The notes beneath the pieces are model-generated. The model ran no database searches. It was not told where the DNA came from and worked only from the letters and a program-made list of their open reading frames with translations. Positions 30,452 through 42,116 of a stretch of DNA of 42,116 nucleotides are shown one piece after another. The position numbers and the translations under genes were made by a program. Every line of letters begins with the position of its first letter. The stretch's first letter is position 1. The stretch is from Pseudomonadota bacterium (lineage in GTDB: Bacteria > Pseudomonadota > Alphaproteobacteria > Acetobacterales > Acetobacteraceae), in the NCBI GenBank assembly GCA_019352115.1, contig JABBNW010000011.1, forward strand, positions 1 through 42,116, in the 5' to 3' direction.

Positions 30452-31987
30452 CTACGCCGCGTGCGCGCGGACGTCCTTCACGTCGCGGAAAATCACCGCG
30501 GGCGCGAGGTCCGCGGTGCGGCGCAGCATGAACTCCGATGTCGCCAGGAACACCGGATCGGCATCCACGTCATCGGCGATCGCCGAGCGGTTGGCGGCGA
30601 TGAACCGCTCCAGCGCCGCCTTGTCGGGCGAGGAAATCCAGCGCGCCAGGGCGAACGGGGTGGCATCGAAGCCGACCCCGACGCCGTATTCCGCGCCCAG
30701 CCGTGCGGCCAGCACGTCGAGCTGCAGCGCGCCGACCACGCCCACGATCGGCGCCGCGCCGTCCTGCGGGCGGAACAACTGCACCACACCCTCTTCCGCG
30801 AGTTCCACCAGCGCCTGGCGCAGCTTCTTCGCCTTCATCGCGTCATCGAGGCGCACCCGGCGCAGGATTTCGGGCGCGAAGGACGGCACGCCGACGAAAT
30901 TGAGCGCTTCGCCTTCCGTCAGGGTGTCGCCGATGCGCAGGGTGCCGTGGTTGGGAATGCCGACGACGTCGCCGGCGAAGGCCTCTTCCGCGATCTCGCG
31001 CTCGCGGGCGAAGAAGAACTGCGGCGCGTGCAGCGGGATCAGCTTGCCGGTGCGGACTTGTTTCAATCGCATGCCGCGCACCAGCCGGCCGGAGCAGACA
31101 CGGGCGAAGGCGATGCGGTCGCGGTGATTCGGGTCCATGTTGGCCTGGATCTTGAAGACCAGAGCGGTCAGGCCGGGCTCGGTGGCGTCCACCATCCGCA
31201 GGTCGGCCTGCTGCGCGCGCGGGCGCGGCCCGAAGTCGGCAAGGCCGTCGAGCAGGTCGGCGACCCCGATCCCCTTGATCGCGGCACCGAAATAGACCGG
31301 CGTCAGATGGCCTTCCGCGAACCCCGGGCGGTCGAATTCCGGCAGCGCGGCGGCGACCAGATCGAGTTCCTCGCCCAGCGCGGCGAGGCGCGGATCGGAT
31401 TGCGGCAGGTCCTGCGTCGTGTGCAGCACGCGGGCGCGCAGATCGTAGGTGCCGACGAAGCCGGACGCGCGGCCCACCGGCCAGGTGACCGGGGCGGTAT
31501 CCAGCGCCAGGTCGTTGCCCACCTCGTCGAGCAGGGCGAACGGGTCCTGGCTCTCGCGATCCATCTTGTTGATGAAGGTGATGATCGGGATGTCGCGCAG
31601 GCGGCAGATCTCGAACAGCTTGCGGGTGCGCGCCTCGATCCCCTTGGCGGCGTCGATCACCATCACGGCGGCGTCGACGGCGGTCAGGGTGCGGTAGGTG
31701 TCTTCGGAGAAATCCTCGTGACCCGGCGTGTCGAGCAGGTTGAAGACGCAGCCCTTGTATTCGAACGTCATGACGGATGTCACGACCGAGATGCCGCGCT
31801 CGCGTTCGATGCTCATCCAGTCCGATCGGGTGCGCCGGCGTTCGCCCTTGGCGCGCACGTTGCCGGCGAGCTGGATGGCGCCGCCGGCGCGCAGCAGGTG
31901 CTCGGTGAGGGTCGTCTTGCCGGCGTCGGGGTGGGAGATGATCGCGAAGGTGCGGCGGCGGGCGATCTCGGTGGTCTGGTCGGTCAT
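30452..31987 (-). CDS. prfC: Peptide chain release factor 3
   Basis: RF3, 511 residues, a translational GTPase that recycles RF1 and RF2 from the ribosome after termination. GTPase motifs are clear: G1 SHPDAGKTT (18-26), the switch-I region with ERERGISV, G3 DTPGH (86-90) and G4 NKMD (140-143). The NKMDRESQDP context and the C-terminal domain (VGVVGALQLDVLAARL) separate RF3 from EF-G. The start at 31987 gives MTDQTTEIARRRTFA; an upstream extension to 32038 is proline-rich and unlikely. It is slightly shorter than the E. coli protein (529). Confidence 0.96.
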   Translation of the reverse strand: MTDQTTEIARRRTFAIISHPDAGKTTLTEHLLRAGGAIQLAGNVRAKGERRRTRSDWMSIERERGISVVTSVMTFEYKGCVFNLLDTPGHEDFSEDTYRTLTAVDAAVMVIDAAKGIEARTRKLFEICRLRDIPIITFINKMDRESQDPFALLDEVGNDLALDTAPVTWPVGRASGFVGTYDLRARVLHTTQDLPQSDPRLAALGEELDLVAAALPEFDRPGFAEGHLTPVYFGAAIKGIGVADLLDGLADFGPRPRAQQADLRMVDATEPGLTALVFKIQANMDPNHRDRIAFARVCSGRLVRGMRLKQVRTGKLIPLHAPQFFFAREREIAEEAFAGDVVGIPNHGTLRIGDTLTEGEALNFVGVPSFAPEILRRVRLDDAMKAKKLRQALVELAEEGVVQLFRPQDGAAPIVGVVGALQLDVLAARLGAEYGVGVGFDATPFALARWISSPDKAALERFIAANRSAIADDVDADPVFLATSEFMLRRTADLAPAVIFRDVKDVRAHAA

Positions 31988-32086
31988 GCGGGGTCCATGG
32001 AAAAGCGCCGGGGGAGGGGGCCGCCCGGCGCTGCACACGTGTCATATAGGGCCGGGGCGGGGGAAACCAGTCAGGGGGTTGCGCCC

Positions 32087-32309
32087 TCATGCGATCCGGA
32101 TGCCGGTCCCCGGAAAGTCGCTCCCCCTTGCGCAGCAGCGGCGCGTCCAGCGCCGGTGCGCAGGCATAGACGAAGCCGTCGCCCAGGTTCAGCGCGGCGG
32201 CATGACGCCGATGGCCGAAGCGCGCGAACGCCGCGATGGCGGCGCGGCCGCGGGGCGCATCGATCGGGACGACCGTCGCGCCCACCTCGGCGAGAAACCG
32301 GTCGAGCAC
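32087..32309 (-). pseudogene. vapC-type PIN ribonuclease toxin, 3' fragment with frameshift
   Basis: The minus-strand frame reads VLDRFLAEVGATVVPIDAPR, then FARFGHRRHAAALNLGDGFVYACA and PLLRKG, which matches the C-terminal half of VapC toxins (family pattern FGKGRHPAGLNFGDCFAYALA, LLFKGDDF). After LLRKG the frame is lost. Removing one G from the G-run at about 32122-32126 restores KGSDFPGTGIRIA and a stop at 32087. The N-terminal half with the first PIN aspartate is absent, and no vapB is seen. It is therefore a truncated and frameshifted relic rather than a gene. Confidence 0.7.
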
Positions 32310-32495
32310 CGAAGGCACCGGACCGCCCGATCCGCGTCGTCTTGTCCCTGACGTGGAATGCCATCTGGTACCCCGCCGGTTTCCCGGCAGATCCAAACGC
32401 CCGACCGGCCTACGTGCGCAAGCCAGACGATCGTAGAGCGATTGCCAAGCGGTTCGGCGCGGATCAGGGTCCCAGGGGTGGCCGCACGTCTGCGC

Positions 32496-32527
32496 TTGCG
32501 TTGTAATTAGGAATTCCTTATAAGGAG
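32496..32527 (+). promoter_or_regulatory. Promoter/operator of the toxin-antitoxin cassette
   Basis: TTGCGT (32496-32501) and TATAAG (32519-32524), 17 nt apart, form a good sigma-70 match. Overlapping it, 32509-32526 reads as three alternating half-sites, AGGA-AT-TCCT-TATA-AGGA, so that AGGAATTCCT and TCCTTATAAGGA are both perfect palindromes sharing the middle half-site. The last AGGA is also the ribosome site (AAGGAG, 8 nt before the ATG). A dimeric XRE protein bound here would be expected to block both transcription and translation initiation. Confidence 0.6.
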
Positions 32528-32535
32528 ACCGCGGG

Positions 32536-32883
32536 ATGCTTCCCGGCTTCTTTCGGGCCGCCGGCATCGACGTGGTGGCGGAATGGCGCCGGTTTCAGGC
32601 GGCCTGCCCGGACCAGGGGGCGGACACGCTCGCCGCGCTGGTTGGGCTGGCCCACTGGGGAGCGCAGGAAATCCCGCACGCGGACCGGTTGGCGGCACGC
32701 GGGCTATTCTGCCGCCGGATTGCCGACTGGGGCGTGTTCTACACGCTCGGCGGCGCTTGCAACGACCTCTGGGAAATCACCGTGCTGCATGTATCCCGCT
32801 GTGACCGCACCGAATTCGACGCTGCCGGGCGGGAGGCACTGCGCCGGCGCGCGCTGCGCTGGGATCAGGAGAACGCCCGATGA
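32536..32883 (+). CDS. Probable RelE/ParE-like toxin of a toxin-antitoxin pair
   Basis: A small 115-residue protein that I do not recognise with certainty. It overlaps the following XRE gene by 4 nt (ATGA), the toxin-first order of HigBA-like modules. The central part, GLFCRRIADWGVFYTLGGAC then LWEITVLHVSRC, looks like the beta-hairpin core of RelE/ParE toxins (pattern Y/W-R/G-V-F-Y ... I-x-V-L-H-V). It ends in a charged tail (REALRRRALRWDQENAR). An excellent AAGGAG site lies 8 nt before the ATG. If it is a RelE-type toxin it would act on mRNA or the ribosome; that is inference from size, pattern and partner. Confidence 0.62.
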   Translation: MLPGFFRAAGIDVVAEWRRFQAACPDQGADTLAALVGLAHWGAQEIPHADRLAARGLFCRRIADWGVFYTLGGACNDLWEITVLHVSRCDRTEFDAAGREALRRRALRWDQENAR

Positions 32884-33332
32884 CCCACCCCGCCGCCACC
32901 CTGATCGTCCATCCCGGCCTGGAAGACCTGCTGCCCGACCCGGCCGGGCGGTCGCGGTTCGACGCCACCTCCGCGGCGCTGGAAGCCGCGGTGCTGGTGC
33001 GGCGGATGCGTGCGCTGGCGCCCTCGGCCGAGGGGGGACGCGGCATCACCCAATCCGAACTCGCCCGCCGTGCCGGCCTCACGCCGCCGCGCATCAGCCA
33101 GATCGAAAGCGGGGAGGGCAGCAACGGCCCCACCTACGCGGTGATCCGCAAGATCGCGCAGGCCTGCGGCATCGACTGGACCCGGCTGGTCCGCCAGGGC
33201 CTCGCGGGCCTGGCGGCGGAGATGCCGGCACCCGTCTGGCCCGCCGCTCCGGCGCAGGCATTGGCCGCGCACGAACCGCCCGCATCGTGGGATGCCTCCA
33301 GGACGTCCCCGCCGACGGCCAAGGGCGGCTGA
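32880..33332 (+). CDS. XRE-family transcriptional regulator / antitoxin
   Basis: A 150-residue protein with one helix-turn-helix of the XRE/Cro class at about residues 56-98 (ITQSELARRAGLTPPRISQI, then ESGEGSNGPTYAVIRKIAQA). About 50 residues precede the HTH, with a helix-rich stretch (SAALEAAVLVRRMRAL) as in HigA-type antitoxins. It is translationally coupled to the small upstream gene (ATGA). It probably neutralises that protein and represses the operon through the overlapping palindromes at 32509-32526. The C-terminal roughly 40 residues are Ala/Pro-rich and look disordered. Confidence 0.8.
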   Translation: MTHPAATLIVHPGLEDLLPDPAGRSRFDATSAALEAAVLVRRMRALAPSAEGGRGITQSELARRAGLTPPRISQIESGEGSNGPTYAVIRKIAQACGIDWTRLVRQGLAGLAAEMPAPVWPAAPAQALAAHEPPASWDASRTSPPTAKGG

Positions 33333-33342
33333 GGCGCGGCCG

Positions 33343-33705
33343 ATGTCCTGGCTGGGCTTGGCGCCGGCTGCCTGGACGATCGTACTGGTAGCGCTGGCGA
33401 CCTATGCCGCGCTGCTCTCCGCCTGGTTGATGGCGCTGCCGACCGTGCGCGGCGCGGCGATGCAGGAGGCGCTCTTGCTGCTGACTGCCGCCGCCGCGGC
33501 CACGACGGAGGCGGACCGCAAGCTTCACGAGGATGCGCTGGCGAACCTCCGCGCCCGGCTGATCCGGCGCGCGCCGCGTGACCGCCGGGCGATTCGGACC
33601 GGGTGGTGGTTGCTGGTTGCCTCCCTGGCGGCGTTCTCCGCGGCGGTGGTGCTGCAGGCGCGCACCGACCCGGCGTTCCGCGCCGCCCCCGCCGCCGCGC
33701 GTTGA
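33343..33705 (+). CDS. Small two-helix membrane protein in the toxin-antitoxin operon
   Basis: A 120-residue protein of no family I recognise. It has a hydrophobic segment at about 11-33 (WTIVLVALATYAALLSAWLM) and another at about 87-105 (GWWLLVASLAAFSAAVVLQA). Between them lies a roughly 50-residue loop, Ala-rich and then strongly charged (TTEADRKLHEDALANLRARL, RRAPRDRRAIR). The basic residues before helix 2 suggest that the loop is cytoplasmic. The ATG lies 10 nt after the XRE stop on the same strand, so it is probably co-transcribed. Whether it is a functional third component or a passenger cannot be told from the sequence. Confidence 0.6.
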   Translation: MSWLGLAPAAWTIVLVALATYAALLSAWLMALPTVRGAAMQEALLLLTAAAAATTEADRKLHEDALANLRARLIRRAPRDRRAIRTGWWLLVASLAAFSAAVVLQARTDPAFRAAPAAAR

Positions 33706-33760
33706 CAGCCGGGCCGGGCGGCCCTGTCATCGCCGCCGGGCATATCCCCCCGGGGGCCGC

Positions 33761-34942
33761 ATGACGATCCCGACCCGACCCGACATCGACCCGCCGGACC
33801 CGGTCGCGCGCGCCCGCCGCCTCGGCCCCGCGATCGCCGCCGCGGCCGAGACGATCGAGCGCACCCAGCGCATCCCCGAACCGTTGCTTTCGGACCTGCA
33901 CGCGGCGCGGCTGTGCCGGATGCTGCTGCCGCGCTCGGTCGACGGCGACGAAGTGCCGCCCTCCGTCTATCTGCGCGCGGTGGAGGAGGTCAGCCGCCAC
34001 GATGCGTCGGTGGGCTGGAACGTGTTCGTCGCCAACAGCTCCGCCTTGATCGCGCCATTCCTGCCCGCCGAGACGGCCCGCACGATCTTCGCCGATCCCC
34101 GGGCGCTCGTCTCCTGGGGGCCGCCGAACGCCGCCGCCGCGACCGCGGTGCCGGGAGGGTATCGGGTCAGCGGGGAATGGCATTTCGCCAGCGGCTCGCG
34201 CCAGGCAACCTGGATGGGCGCGCATTGCCAGGTGATCGAGCCGGACGGCACCCGCCGCCGCAACGCCGCCGGGGTGCCGGTGATCCGCACCGTGCTGTTC
34301 CCCGCCGATCGCGCCGAGCGCATCGCCGACTGGCAGGTGATCGGCCTGCGCGGCACCGCATCCGAAGGCTATCGGGTGACCGACCTGTTCGTGCCGGAGG
34401 CGTTCAGCGGCACCCGCGAGGACCCGGCGCTGCGGCGCGAACCCGGTCGGCTGTACGCCTTCACCATGCAGGGCCTGTATGCCGTGGGCGCGGCGGGCGT
34501 GGCGTTCGGCATCGCGCGCGCGATGCTGGATGCGTTCGTCGCCCTGGCCATGCGCAAGGCTCCGCGCGGGCTGGGGCGGCTGGCCGACAGCGCGGTGATC
34601 CAGGCCGGGCTGGCGCGGCACGAGGCGGCGCTGGGCGCGGCGCGGGCCTATCTGATCGAGGTCCTGGGCGCGATCTGGGCGCAGGCGGGGGACTCGGCGC
34701 CGATCGACATCCCGGCGCGCGCCCAGGTGCGGCTGGCCTGCGCGCACGGGCTGGGCCAGGCGATCGCGGCGGCGGATTTCGCCTACAAGGCGGCCGGGGT
34801 CGATGCGATCTTCGCCGGCTCGGCGTTCGAGCGGCGGTTCCGCGACATGCACACCCTGGCGCAGCAGATCCAGGCACGGGATGCGCATTTCGAGGCGGTG
34901 GGCGCGATCCTGCTCGGGATCGTGCCGGACGTGTTCTACTGA
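33761..34942 (+). CDS. Acyl-CoA dehydrogenase-family flavoprotein (HpaH/DszC-like)
   Basis: A 393-residue protein of the acyl-CoA dehydrogenase fold, in the branch that includes flavin-dependent monooxygenases and hydroxylases. Features are an N-terminal helical domain (RIPEPLLSDLHAARLCRMLL), SVGWNVFVANSS, the beta-domain segment GGYRVSGEWHFASGSRQATW at about residues 132-151, and a C-terminal helical domain. I see no clear acyl-CoA dehydrogenase catalytic glutamate, which fits the monooxygenase branch, where reduced flavin comes from a separate reductase. No reductase gene is adjacent. The ATG at 33761 was chosen because sequence upstream is not family-like. Substrate unknown. Confidence 0.78.
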   Translation: MTIPTRPDIDPPDPVARARRLGPAIAAAAETIERTQRIPEPLLSDLHAARLCRMLLPRSVDGDEVPPSVYLRAVEEVSRHDASVGWNVFVANSSALIAPFLPAETARTIFADPRALVSWGPPNAAAATAVPGGYRVSGEWHFASGSRQATWMGAHCQVIEPDGTRRRNAAGVPVIRTVLFPADRAERIADWQVIGLRGTASEGYRVTDLFVPEAFSGTREDPALRREPGRLYAFTMQGLYAVGAAGVAFGIARAMLDAFVALAMRKAPRGLGRLADSAVIQAGLARHEAALGAARAYLIEVLGAIWAQAGDSAPIDIPARAQVRLACAHGLGQAIAAADFAYKAAGVDAIFAGSAFERRFRDMHTLAQQIQARDAHFEAVGAILLGIVPDVFY

Positions 34943-39637: not shown

Positions 39638-39979
39638 TCAGGCGGCGATGCCCAGCCGGTGGCGTGCTTCCTCCAGGTCGTGCGCCGTCTGCAAGTTCAT
39701 CCAGAACTCCGCGCTGGTGCCGAAACGGCGCGCGAGCAGCAGCGCGGTCCCGGCCGTGACGGCTCGCGCCCCGTGGATGATCCCGGTGATGCGGTTGGCC
39801 GGCACGCCGATCTCGCGCGCCAGGGCGCGGGCGGACAGGCCCATCGGTTCCAGGAATTCGGCACGCAGGACCTCCCCGGGGGTGATGTTCGGCAAGGGGG
39901 CGCCGCTGGTCTCGGCCGCGAGGTCGAGGCCGGCGAGGGCGCTGCGCTGGATCAGGTCGGGCATGTCGGGCACTTTCAT
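39638..39979 (-). CDS. higA: HigA-family addiction-module antitoxin
   Basis: A 113-residue XRE-type antitoxin of the HigA/VapI family. The family core is plain: NITPGEVLRAEFLEPMGLSA (about 31-50), the HTH ALAREIGVPANRITGIIHGA and RRFGTSAEFWMNLQTAHDLE (about 84-103). The start at 39979 forms a TGATG junction with the stop of the toxin relic upstream; MPDLIQ at 39964 is an alternative start. HigA normally neutralises the HigB mRNA interferase and represses the operon. Here the cognate toxin is reduced to its last codons, so this is an orphan antitoxin unless it serves another module. Confidence 0.88.
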   Translation of the reverse strand: MKVPDMPDLIQRSALAGLDLAAETSGAPLPNITPGEVLRAEFLEPMGLSARALAREIGVPANRITGIIHGARAVTAGTALLLARRFGTSAEFWMNLQTAHDLEEARHRLGIAA

Positions 39980-40023
39980 CAGTGATAGTCCACGATTTCG
40001 ACCGCGTGGGCACCGCCGCTGGT
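39979..40023 (-). pseudogene. higB toxin remnant (last 14 codons)
   Basis: Immediately before higA, in the overlapping TGATG arrangement typical of higBA, the minus strand encodes TSGGAHAVEIVDYH and then a stop. The ending VEIVDYH is the hallmark C-terminus of HigB/RelE-type toxins. Further upstream in this frame there is only Pro/Ala/Arg-rich sequence, without the rest of the toxin. Confidence 0.72.
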
Positions 40024-40550: not shown

Positions 40551-41729
40551 TTAGTCCGTGGCCTGGGCATTGGCTATAGCCGCGGCATCCGCCACAATTG
40601 CACCAATATGGGCGACCACGTCTTTACACTTGCTCAGGTTCTTGAAGAGGTGAGCCAGGTAAGAGTCACCGTACAGCTCTCCAAGGACATCGTAGAGGCG
40701 AGCGCACGCCTGGGAGGTCAAATTCCGGATGGCCGCCGCATGCCGAGATATTTCGAACTTCGGTGTTCCGAGGTCGTCGCAGACGAAGTTACGGAACACT
40801 ATGTGTGCTACCAATCGGTTTCCATTGATTGCTATACTTCTGGCCTTAGCGTCATCTTGCATTAATCGTTCTAGTTCCAGAAGGTCGTCTACCTCCCTGA
40901 GAATTTGCACAAGGTGCCAAAGTTTAAGGCTAGAAAGCCCGGAGTTGAACATTATCTTATATGGAGGTCGAGCAAGATCCTCCCAAAGCTTACTAATCTC
41001 TCGTTTAGCTTGAACGGATAGGTCTGGGGAACTTGTAGAGCAGGCAAGAGCAACTGTGGCATCGACAAGGCCGAAGCGCTTTTCGCCGTTCGGCTCGCCC
41101 TCCCCCTGTCGGTACTCGTAGTCTATGCCGTCAACCAAGAGTTCAGAGCGGATCCTGCCTTGTTCAGGATCGAGAGCGACGAAGTTCCGAGAATCGACGC
41201 GATTCTGTGTGTTAGTTGCTCTCGTCACATCATTAGCAAACTCAGGTGGGCAGCCCTCAAGAGAAATGATCCGAATGGGAACACGTGCGGTCGCGAGCTG
41301 CTCGGCTGCACTATCTGACAACTCAGTGATGGCGCCGACCGTCTGTGCGCCATTTACAATTGCTACACCTTGACACTCGAAGGTCCCGGCTTCCCGGCTG
41401 TTCCCGCCCACCGCTCTCTTAGTGATGCTTGAACAGAGTGCGGTAATACCATTATTGAGATACCAAAACTGGTTTGGCGTTTTTCGGATTGAATCGGCGA
41501 TTCCCTCATTGACCGCGGTATTAGCGCCAAGGAAGGAACGAATGTTTTTGGAGAATATTCTATGCCGCCACTTGGCGCCCCATTGCGCGACATCGCTTGC
41601 GGCAACTTGCCCGTAGAATGCTTGGTAAGGAGCTTTGGTTTGCCCCCAATCGAACAGCTGCACTGCTATATCAACTGGATCGCCTCGTCCACCCATAGAT
41701 ACAATTGTGTATAGATTCTCCTGTGACAC
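40551..41729 (-). CDS. AIPR-family (abortive infection type) protein, 5'-truncated by an insertion
   Basis: A 392-residue open frame matching the AIPR family, associated with abortive-infection phage resistance. Family landmarks are IFSKNIRSFLG (58-68), FWYLNNGITALCSS (88-101) and VAIVNGAQTVGAITELSD (122-139). AIPR proteins normally carry a few hundred further residues before NIRSFLG. Here the frame continues upstream without a stop through SHVYCWGISNDTGDVASLDV, then hits the TAG that ends an IS630 transposase at 41790. The coding start given (GTG, 41729) is therefore only the first internal candidate, and the gene is probably a 5'-truncated pseudogene. GC content is far lower than in neighbouring genes, so it is probably horizontally acquired. 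Confidence 0.75.
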   Translation of the reverse strand: MSQENLYTIVSMGGRGDPVDIAVQLFDWGQTKAPYQAFYGQVAASDVAQWGAKWRHRIFSKNIRSFLGANTAVNEGIADSIRKTPNQFWYLNNGITALCSSITKRAVGGNSREAGTFECQGVAIVNGAQTVGAITELSDSAAEQLATARVPIRIISLEGCPPEFANDVTRATNTQNRVDSRNFVALDPEQGRIRSELLVDGIDYEYRQGEGEPNGEKRFGLVDATVALACSTSSPDLSVQAKREISKLWEDLARPPYKIMFNSGLSSLKLWHLVQILREVDDLLELERLMQDDAKARSIAINGNRLVAHIVFRNFVCDDLGTPKFEISRHAAAIRNLTSQACARLYDVLGELYGDSYLAHLFKNLSKCKDVVAHIGAIVADAAAIANAQATD

Positions 41730-41782: not shown

Positions 41783-42116
41783 CATGACTCTACGCGGCGT
41801 AACGAACATCCTTGTGCCTGAAGTAAGCCTTGATCCGATCCGGCTGGCGCTGGAGCGACCGCAGCACCGACGTCGTGCCTCGGACCAGTTCCTCATGCGT
41901 GTCCGGCCGAGGCAAGTTCCGCAGCTTCTGCTTCAGGTCATTGTTCAGGTACTCGTCGGGATTGTGCTCCGGTGCGTAGGGCGGCAGGAAAAACAGCTCG
42001 ATCTCGTCGCTGTGTGCCGCCACCCAGCGGCTGACCTTCACCGCCTTATGCACTCGGAGATTATCCACGATCAGGAACTGCTTGCCGGAGGACCCTTTGA
42101 TCAGCCGCCGCAGGAA
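41783..42116 (-). mobile_element. IS630-family insertion sequence, partial (left end in window)
   Basis: The DDE transposase at 41790-42116 belongs to a GC-rich element abutting the AT-richer AIPR coding sequence. The junction lies between about 41780 and 41790, where composition and reading frame both switch; a TA dinucleotide at 41781-41782 is a plausible target site because IS630 elements insert at TA. The other end and both inverted repeats cannot be checked because the element leaves the window. Confidence 0.7.
41790..42116 (-). CDS. IS630-family transposase, C-terminal part (runs off right edge)
   Basis: The C-terminal roughly 108 residues of a DDE_3/IS630 transposase. The frame stays open to the window edge (FLRRLIKGSSGKQFLIVDNL), so the true start is outside and the internal GTG at 42070-42068 is not a real start. 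The second catalytic aspartate is in LIVDNLRVHKA and the third acidic residue in FFLPPYAPEHNPDEYLNNDL, both standard for this family. The stop (TAG, 41790-41792) lies at the junction with the interrupted AIPR gene. Confidence 0.88.
   Translation of the reverse strand, partial: FLRRLIKGSSGKQFLIVDNLRVHKAVKVSRWVAAHSDEIELFFLPPYAPEHNPDEYLNNDLKQKLRNLPRPDTHEELVRGTTSVLRSLQRQPDRIKAYFRHKDVRYAA

Follow-up and report, generated by a model that had tools for sequence, protein, structure and literature searches.

A putative type II toxin–antitoxin pair with an unrecognised toxin candidate, followed by a membrane-protein gene at a variable site

According to our analysis, the first two of three consecutive same-strand genes in the studied DNA form, with fair probability, a type II toxin–antitoxin (TA) pair whose toxin is of an unrecognised kind, and the third gene is probably a membrane passenger of this pair. 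The genes lie in a window of 42,116 nucleotides (the whole stretch of DNA that was analysed, with a G+C content of approximately 70%). The TA reading relies on the toxin–antitoxin order, the 4-nt overlap, the protein sizes and the operator-like pair of palindromes, all of which fit such an operon, and on the resemblance of the second protein to TA antitoxins both within and outside its helix-turn-helix (HTH) domain. The features of the locus are as follows:

32060..32399, minus strand: possible decayed remnant of a PIN/VapC-type toxin gene, 5′ of the operon (PIN domain at E 0.012, which does not reach the Pfam cut-off)
32509..32525, no strand assigned: candidate operator, two overlapping perfect 10-bp palindromes directly 5′ of gene 1, overlapping its ribosome-binding site
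32536-32883, plus strand: gene 1, 115 aa, an open frame of coding-type composition; an orphan, with the toxin role presumed from its position
32880-33332, plus strand: gene 2, an XRE protein of 150 aa with a presumed role as antitoxin and autorepressor
33343-33705, plus strand: gene 3, 120 aa, predicted to be all-helical and to span the membrane twice, with a charged stretch in the middle

A preliminary description of this DNA had reported three short genes on one strand, joined by an ATGA overlap and a 10-nt gap, and the coordinates, the composition and the ribosome-binding-like stretches confirm this arrangement. The ATGA at 32880-32883 is shared by genes 1 and 2, gene 3 starts after a gap of 10 nt, and purine-rich stretches resembling ribosome-binding sites are located a few nucleotides 5′ of the starts (AAGGAG for gene 1, AGGAG for gene 2 and GAGG for gene 3). 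The G+C content at the third codon position (0.82, 0.89 and 0.90 for genes 1, 2 and 3, respectively) resembles that of the well-framed neighbouring genes (0.89-0.92) and exceeds that of most competing frames; therefore, the three genes look real and not like chance open reading frames (ORFs). The operon is flanked on the left by a gene on the opposite strand, which we take to be prfC (30452-32038), and on the right by an acyl-CoA dehydrogenase-like gene (33761-34942). Two small, adjacent and overlapping genes, as expected of a type II TA module, are thus present in genes 1 and 2. The toxin-first order with a short overlap is that of annotated plasmid RelE/ParE-XRE pairs (for example, L126, L127 and L129-L132), and the same order is listed for the HigB, HigB-like and Gp49 families (PMC11980606).

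The assignment of the gene 2 product to the XRE proteins was upheld by its HTH domain (PF01381, HTH_3, 1.7e-11). A profile of antitoxins of RelE/ParE pairs, collected from Gp49-type pairs in relatives, from viral contigs and from annotated RelE/ParE pairs on plasmids, matched residues 19-101 of the protein at E 3e-13, with shuffles far below and the HTH contributing most. Because matches to the HTH alone do not show an antitoxin, the N-terminal arm (residues 1-54) was tested separately. Outside the HTH, this arm aligned without gaps to an antitoxin of the Lacticaseibacillus paracasei plasmid pMGB0734-2 (L128), with 40% identity over 43 residues, and the alignment score of 60 was reached by none of 2000 shuffles, although the best of 19 antitoxins was taken each time. 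The arm-only profile comparison was weaker (1 of 60 shuffles scored as high), and the resemblance of the arm is therefore strongest to one antitoxin subgroup. With its HTH_3 domain and this arm, the gene 2 protein combines a DNA-binding domain with kinship to known antitoxins, and its sequence looks like that of the type II antitoxin class accompanying RelE/ParE-superfamily (Gp49-type) toxins. The locus shares with Gp49-type (PF05973) RelE/ParE-XRE pairs, such as that of pMGB0734-2, the toxin-first order and the close or overlapping genes, as well as the arm and HTH of the antitoxin; in contrast to these pairs, gene 1 has no significant similarity to their toxin, gene 2 has a short additional insertion ahead of the HTH and ends in a tail of approximately 45 residues rich in proline and alanine, and a membrane-protein gene is added downstream.

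The palindromes upstream of gene 1, AGGAATTCCT at 32509-32518 and CCTTATAAGG at 32516-32525, have three bases in common. They represent two of the five AT-rich perfect 10-bp palindromes (six or more A/T) found in the whole window and are the only such pair. Their placement is that at which an autorepressing antitoxin would bind, and the pair may be considered a putative operator. A promoter scan revealed no sigma-70 consensus, which counts against the TA reading.

If genes 1 and 2 are a TA pair, the gene 2 protein would bind the paired palindromes through its HTH, repress the operon and bind the gene 1 protein in a complex that blocks its activity. Once the antitoxin is lost or runs short, the gene 1 protein would be set free, and growth would be slowed. 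Judging from the antitoxin class alone, the likeliest target of gene 1 would be translation, possibly through mRNA cleavage, as for Gp49/HigB toxins. Gene 3 would share the promoter of the pair and would be a passenger or an accessory membrane protein dispensable for TA function.

The toxin role of gene 1 is presumed from its position in the gene order, its size and the antitoxin type of its partner. The preliminary description held that the protein matches no family that can be named with confidence, and we likewise found no family match in Pfam (the BECR families included), NCBIfam, PADLOC or PHROGs, and no solved relative. No believable relative was revealed in approximately 1,000 genomes (species of the genus and 150 family, 299 order, 385 class and 398 phylum genomes, some of them drawn repeatedly) or in the phage, plasmid and viral collections; the genome and viral collections were searched with peptide patterns, a method limited to close relatives, and the plasmids and phages with tblastn. 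All matches obtained were weak, and those examined as candidates (L023, L037 and L078) sat in long unrelated or wrong-frame ORFs. A degenerate query based on an artificial alignment (A1), in which conservative substitutions were added to gene 1 in two strand-like motifs and which holds no real sequences, found nothing in the viral or genome contigs.

The further claim that gene 1 is RelE/ParE-like is an interpretation only. Membership of the RelE/ParE (BECR-fold) superfamily was not recovered by sequence in Pfam, NCBIfam or the Gp49 and HigB-like toxin sets, and the scores of gene 1 against these sets equal those of shuffles or of unrelated protein segments used as decoys, which speaks against the TA reading. 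The proposed structural comparison with RelE/ParE folds went as far as a single-sequence AlphaFold2 run, and the resulting model was unusable (pLDDT 44, pTM 0.32). We regard it as possible, but only tentatively so, that gene 1 encodes a strongly diverged toxin of this superfamily (Gp49 or HigB-like) that has drifted beyond recognition; this would be a sub-case overlapping the favored TA reading. The antitoxin class of gene 2 normally partners Gp49-type toxins, and the order of elements seen by eye in gene 1, with two helices, the strand-like stretches LFCRRIADWGVFYTL and LWEITVLHV and a basic C-terminal helix, would suit a RelE-type toxin, with no statistical support behind it. Furthermore, the mean score of gene 1 to all Gp49-type toxins shows a weak excess over shuffles (3 of 400 as high); however, 8 of 25 unrelated real protein segments reached the same level, so that gene 1 does not stand out from them, the local, HMM and profile tests against Gp49/HigB-like toxins remained at or near the shuffle level, and the missing Pfam match to BECR families argues in the same direction.

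It is less likely, in our estimation, that the locus is not a TA system at all, with gene 2 as a local regulator, gene 1 as a co-regulated protein of another function and gene 3 as an unrelated gene. Many small accessory operons are controlled by XRE repressors, and gene 1 has neither relatives nor a toxin signature. Two points also weigh against the TA reading: proteins of the XRE type regulate operons other than TA modules, and the link between genes 1 and 2 was not seen conserved in any homologous pair elsewhere. Against the non-TA reading, the similarity of the gene 2 N-terminal arm to a TA antitoxin clearly exceeds chance, and in its gene order, overlap and protein sizes the locus conforms to a TA pair.

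The comparison with sister species revealed that the operon occupies a variable site. The acyl-CoA dehydrogenase-like gene is conserved in these species (68-83% protein identity), and the operon block is absent from G133, G739, G738 and G057, where different genes precede it: from a reading of the sequences, presumably a gene resembling those for extracellular proteins in G133 and G739, one resembling short-chain dehydrogenases in G738 and others in G057. DNA homology to G133 and G738 restarts at 33689, within the final codons of gene 3, and since the upstream genes differ, genes 1-3 all belong to one variable block. Such a block fits accessory DNA, and a patchy distribution is usual for TA loci; its absence from the sister species was therefore counted in favor of the TA reading. 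Gene 3 lies outside the conserved flank, from which a functional tie to the pair does not follow. Direct repeats, which would hint at an insertion, were sought at the borders of the block, and only short chance matches were obtained.

Two further observations were made at this site. A sequence that the window has in common with two sister species, TTGACAG...CCCTGTCATC (33702-33737), overlaps the stop codon of gene 3 and is located 5′ of the acyl-CoA dehydrogenase-like gene, of which it is likely the promoter or operator. In G739, only interrupted pieces of the start of prfC were found at the site (L068, 1284-1496), followed by approximately 3.7 kb with genes for PEP-CTERM-like and extracellular proteins; the prfC gene of this species may be broken.

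The third gene had been described as encoding a two-helix membrane protein with a charged segment, and the hydropathy profile agrees with this: hydrophobic stretches span residues 1-33 and 86-108 approximately, with a charged, arginine-rich segment in between. Single-sequence AlphaFold2 modelling gave an all-helical protein of moderate confidence (pLDDT 77; helices 8-31, 33-52, 56-76 and 78-108), and this model had no match better than E 0.79 in the PDB and viral fold libraries. No homologue of gene 3 was found in any collection searched; one weak match (L074, E 4.5e-4) was rejected because it lay antisense to an oxidoreductase-like gene cluster, or in another reading frame, and was not a stand-alone gene. 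The locus does not correspond to a known anti-phage defence system among the PADLOC models, in which genes 1 and 3 had no match and gene 2 matched only at the level of a generic HTH.

The preliminary description had suggested a possible three-component system, with gene 3 as a membrane effector in defence or growth control. Under this reading, gene 3 would act with the gene 1–gene 2 pair as a membrane effector or anchor, serving phage defence or growth control; for instance, it might damage the membrane or tether the complex of the two proteins. We found no positive evidence for such a system and consider it improbable. Compatible with it are the distance of only 10 nt from gene 2 together with a ribosome-binding-like site of its own, the location of gene 3 within the same block that differs from the sister species, and the fairly confident helical model. 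In addition, membrane-acting TA toxins exist, as in RosmerTA (PMC10440598), and a transmembrane part has been predicted in the BECR-fold toxin ToxM (PMC11980606). On the other side, the claim is partly contradicted by the neighbourhoods of 43 related TA pairs, beside which no counterpart of gene 3 was present, and the protein has neither a homologue nor a defence-library match. Many of the 43 related antitoxins had no same-strand ORF of at least 60 aa within 120 nt downstream, and the remaining ones were followed by varied ORFs, some of which are perhaps not real genes. Because gene 1 has no relatives, this test of recurrence was confined to related antitoxins and operates at the level of the antitoxin class; it speaks against gene 3 as a standard third component and is silent on this exact pair. 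Gene 3 is probably a passenger. The most far-reaching combination, an undescribed membrane-linked growth-control or defence module made of a new toxin family, an antitoxin of a known class and a two-helix membrane protein dedicated to the pair, seems to us very improbable.

Among published systems, the closest parallel to a membrane gene that follows a TA pair in an alphaproteobacterium is HigBA with HigX in Caulobacter crescentus, where the membrane-protein gene likewise closely trails the pair and HigX works independently of HigBA (PMC13384398). HigX is predicted to cross the membrane with four helices and carries a LytTR DNA-binding domain, whereas the gene 3 protein contains two hydrophobic helices and lacks any recognised domain. 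The membrane-associated BECR toxin modules ToxM-ToxR are also small TA modules with a membrane component, but there the membrane domain resides in the toxin itself and the antitoxin gene comes first, whereas here the membrane protein is encoded by a separate third gene (PMC11980606). The tripartite TAC systems also have three genes in a TA operon; their third protein is a SecB-like chaperone, in contrast to the small membrane protein encoded by gene 3 (PMC9098466).

Several other features of the window are related to TA or defence functions. The possible PIN/VapC remnant at 32060-32399 has a truncated or lost start and an apparent frameshift near its end, had no plasmid match at 1e-5 and is probably outside the gene 1-3 system. 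A HigA-type XRE antitoxin gene (39638-40018, minus strand) is preceded only by a scrap resembling the HigB C-terminus (HAVEIVDYH) and looks like a TA pair minus its toxin. A 392-aa AIPR-domain protein of the abortive-infection/phage-resistance family (PF10592, E 5e-38) is encoded at 40551-41729 on the minus strand, in a stretch of lower G+C content (57% at 40-42 kb). It adjoins the end of a DDE_3 transposase gene (41790-42116, minus strand; PF13358, E 1.3e-19), which runs off the contig edge.

In conclusion, gene 3 would matter only if it acts with the gene 1–gene 2 pair. If gene 1 proves toxic, it would found a toxin family so far missed by current libraries, with a partner from a familiar antitoxin class, and would add a further case to the antitoxin partner swapping that is widespread among TA systems (PMC10440598). 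Such a toxin would be unsurprising in kind and useful for toxin discovery.
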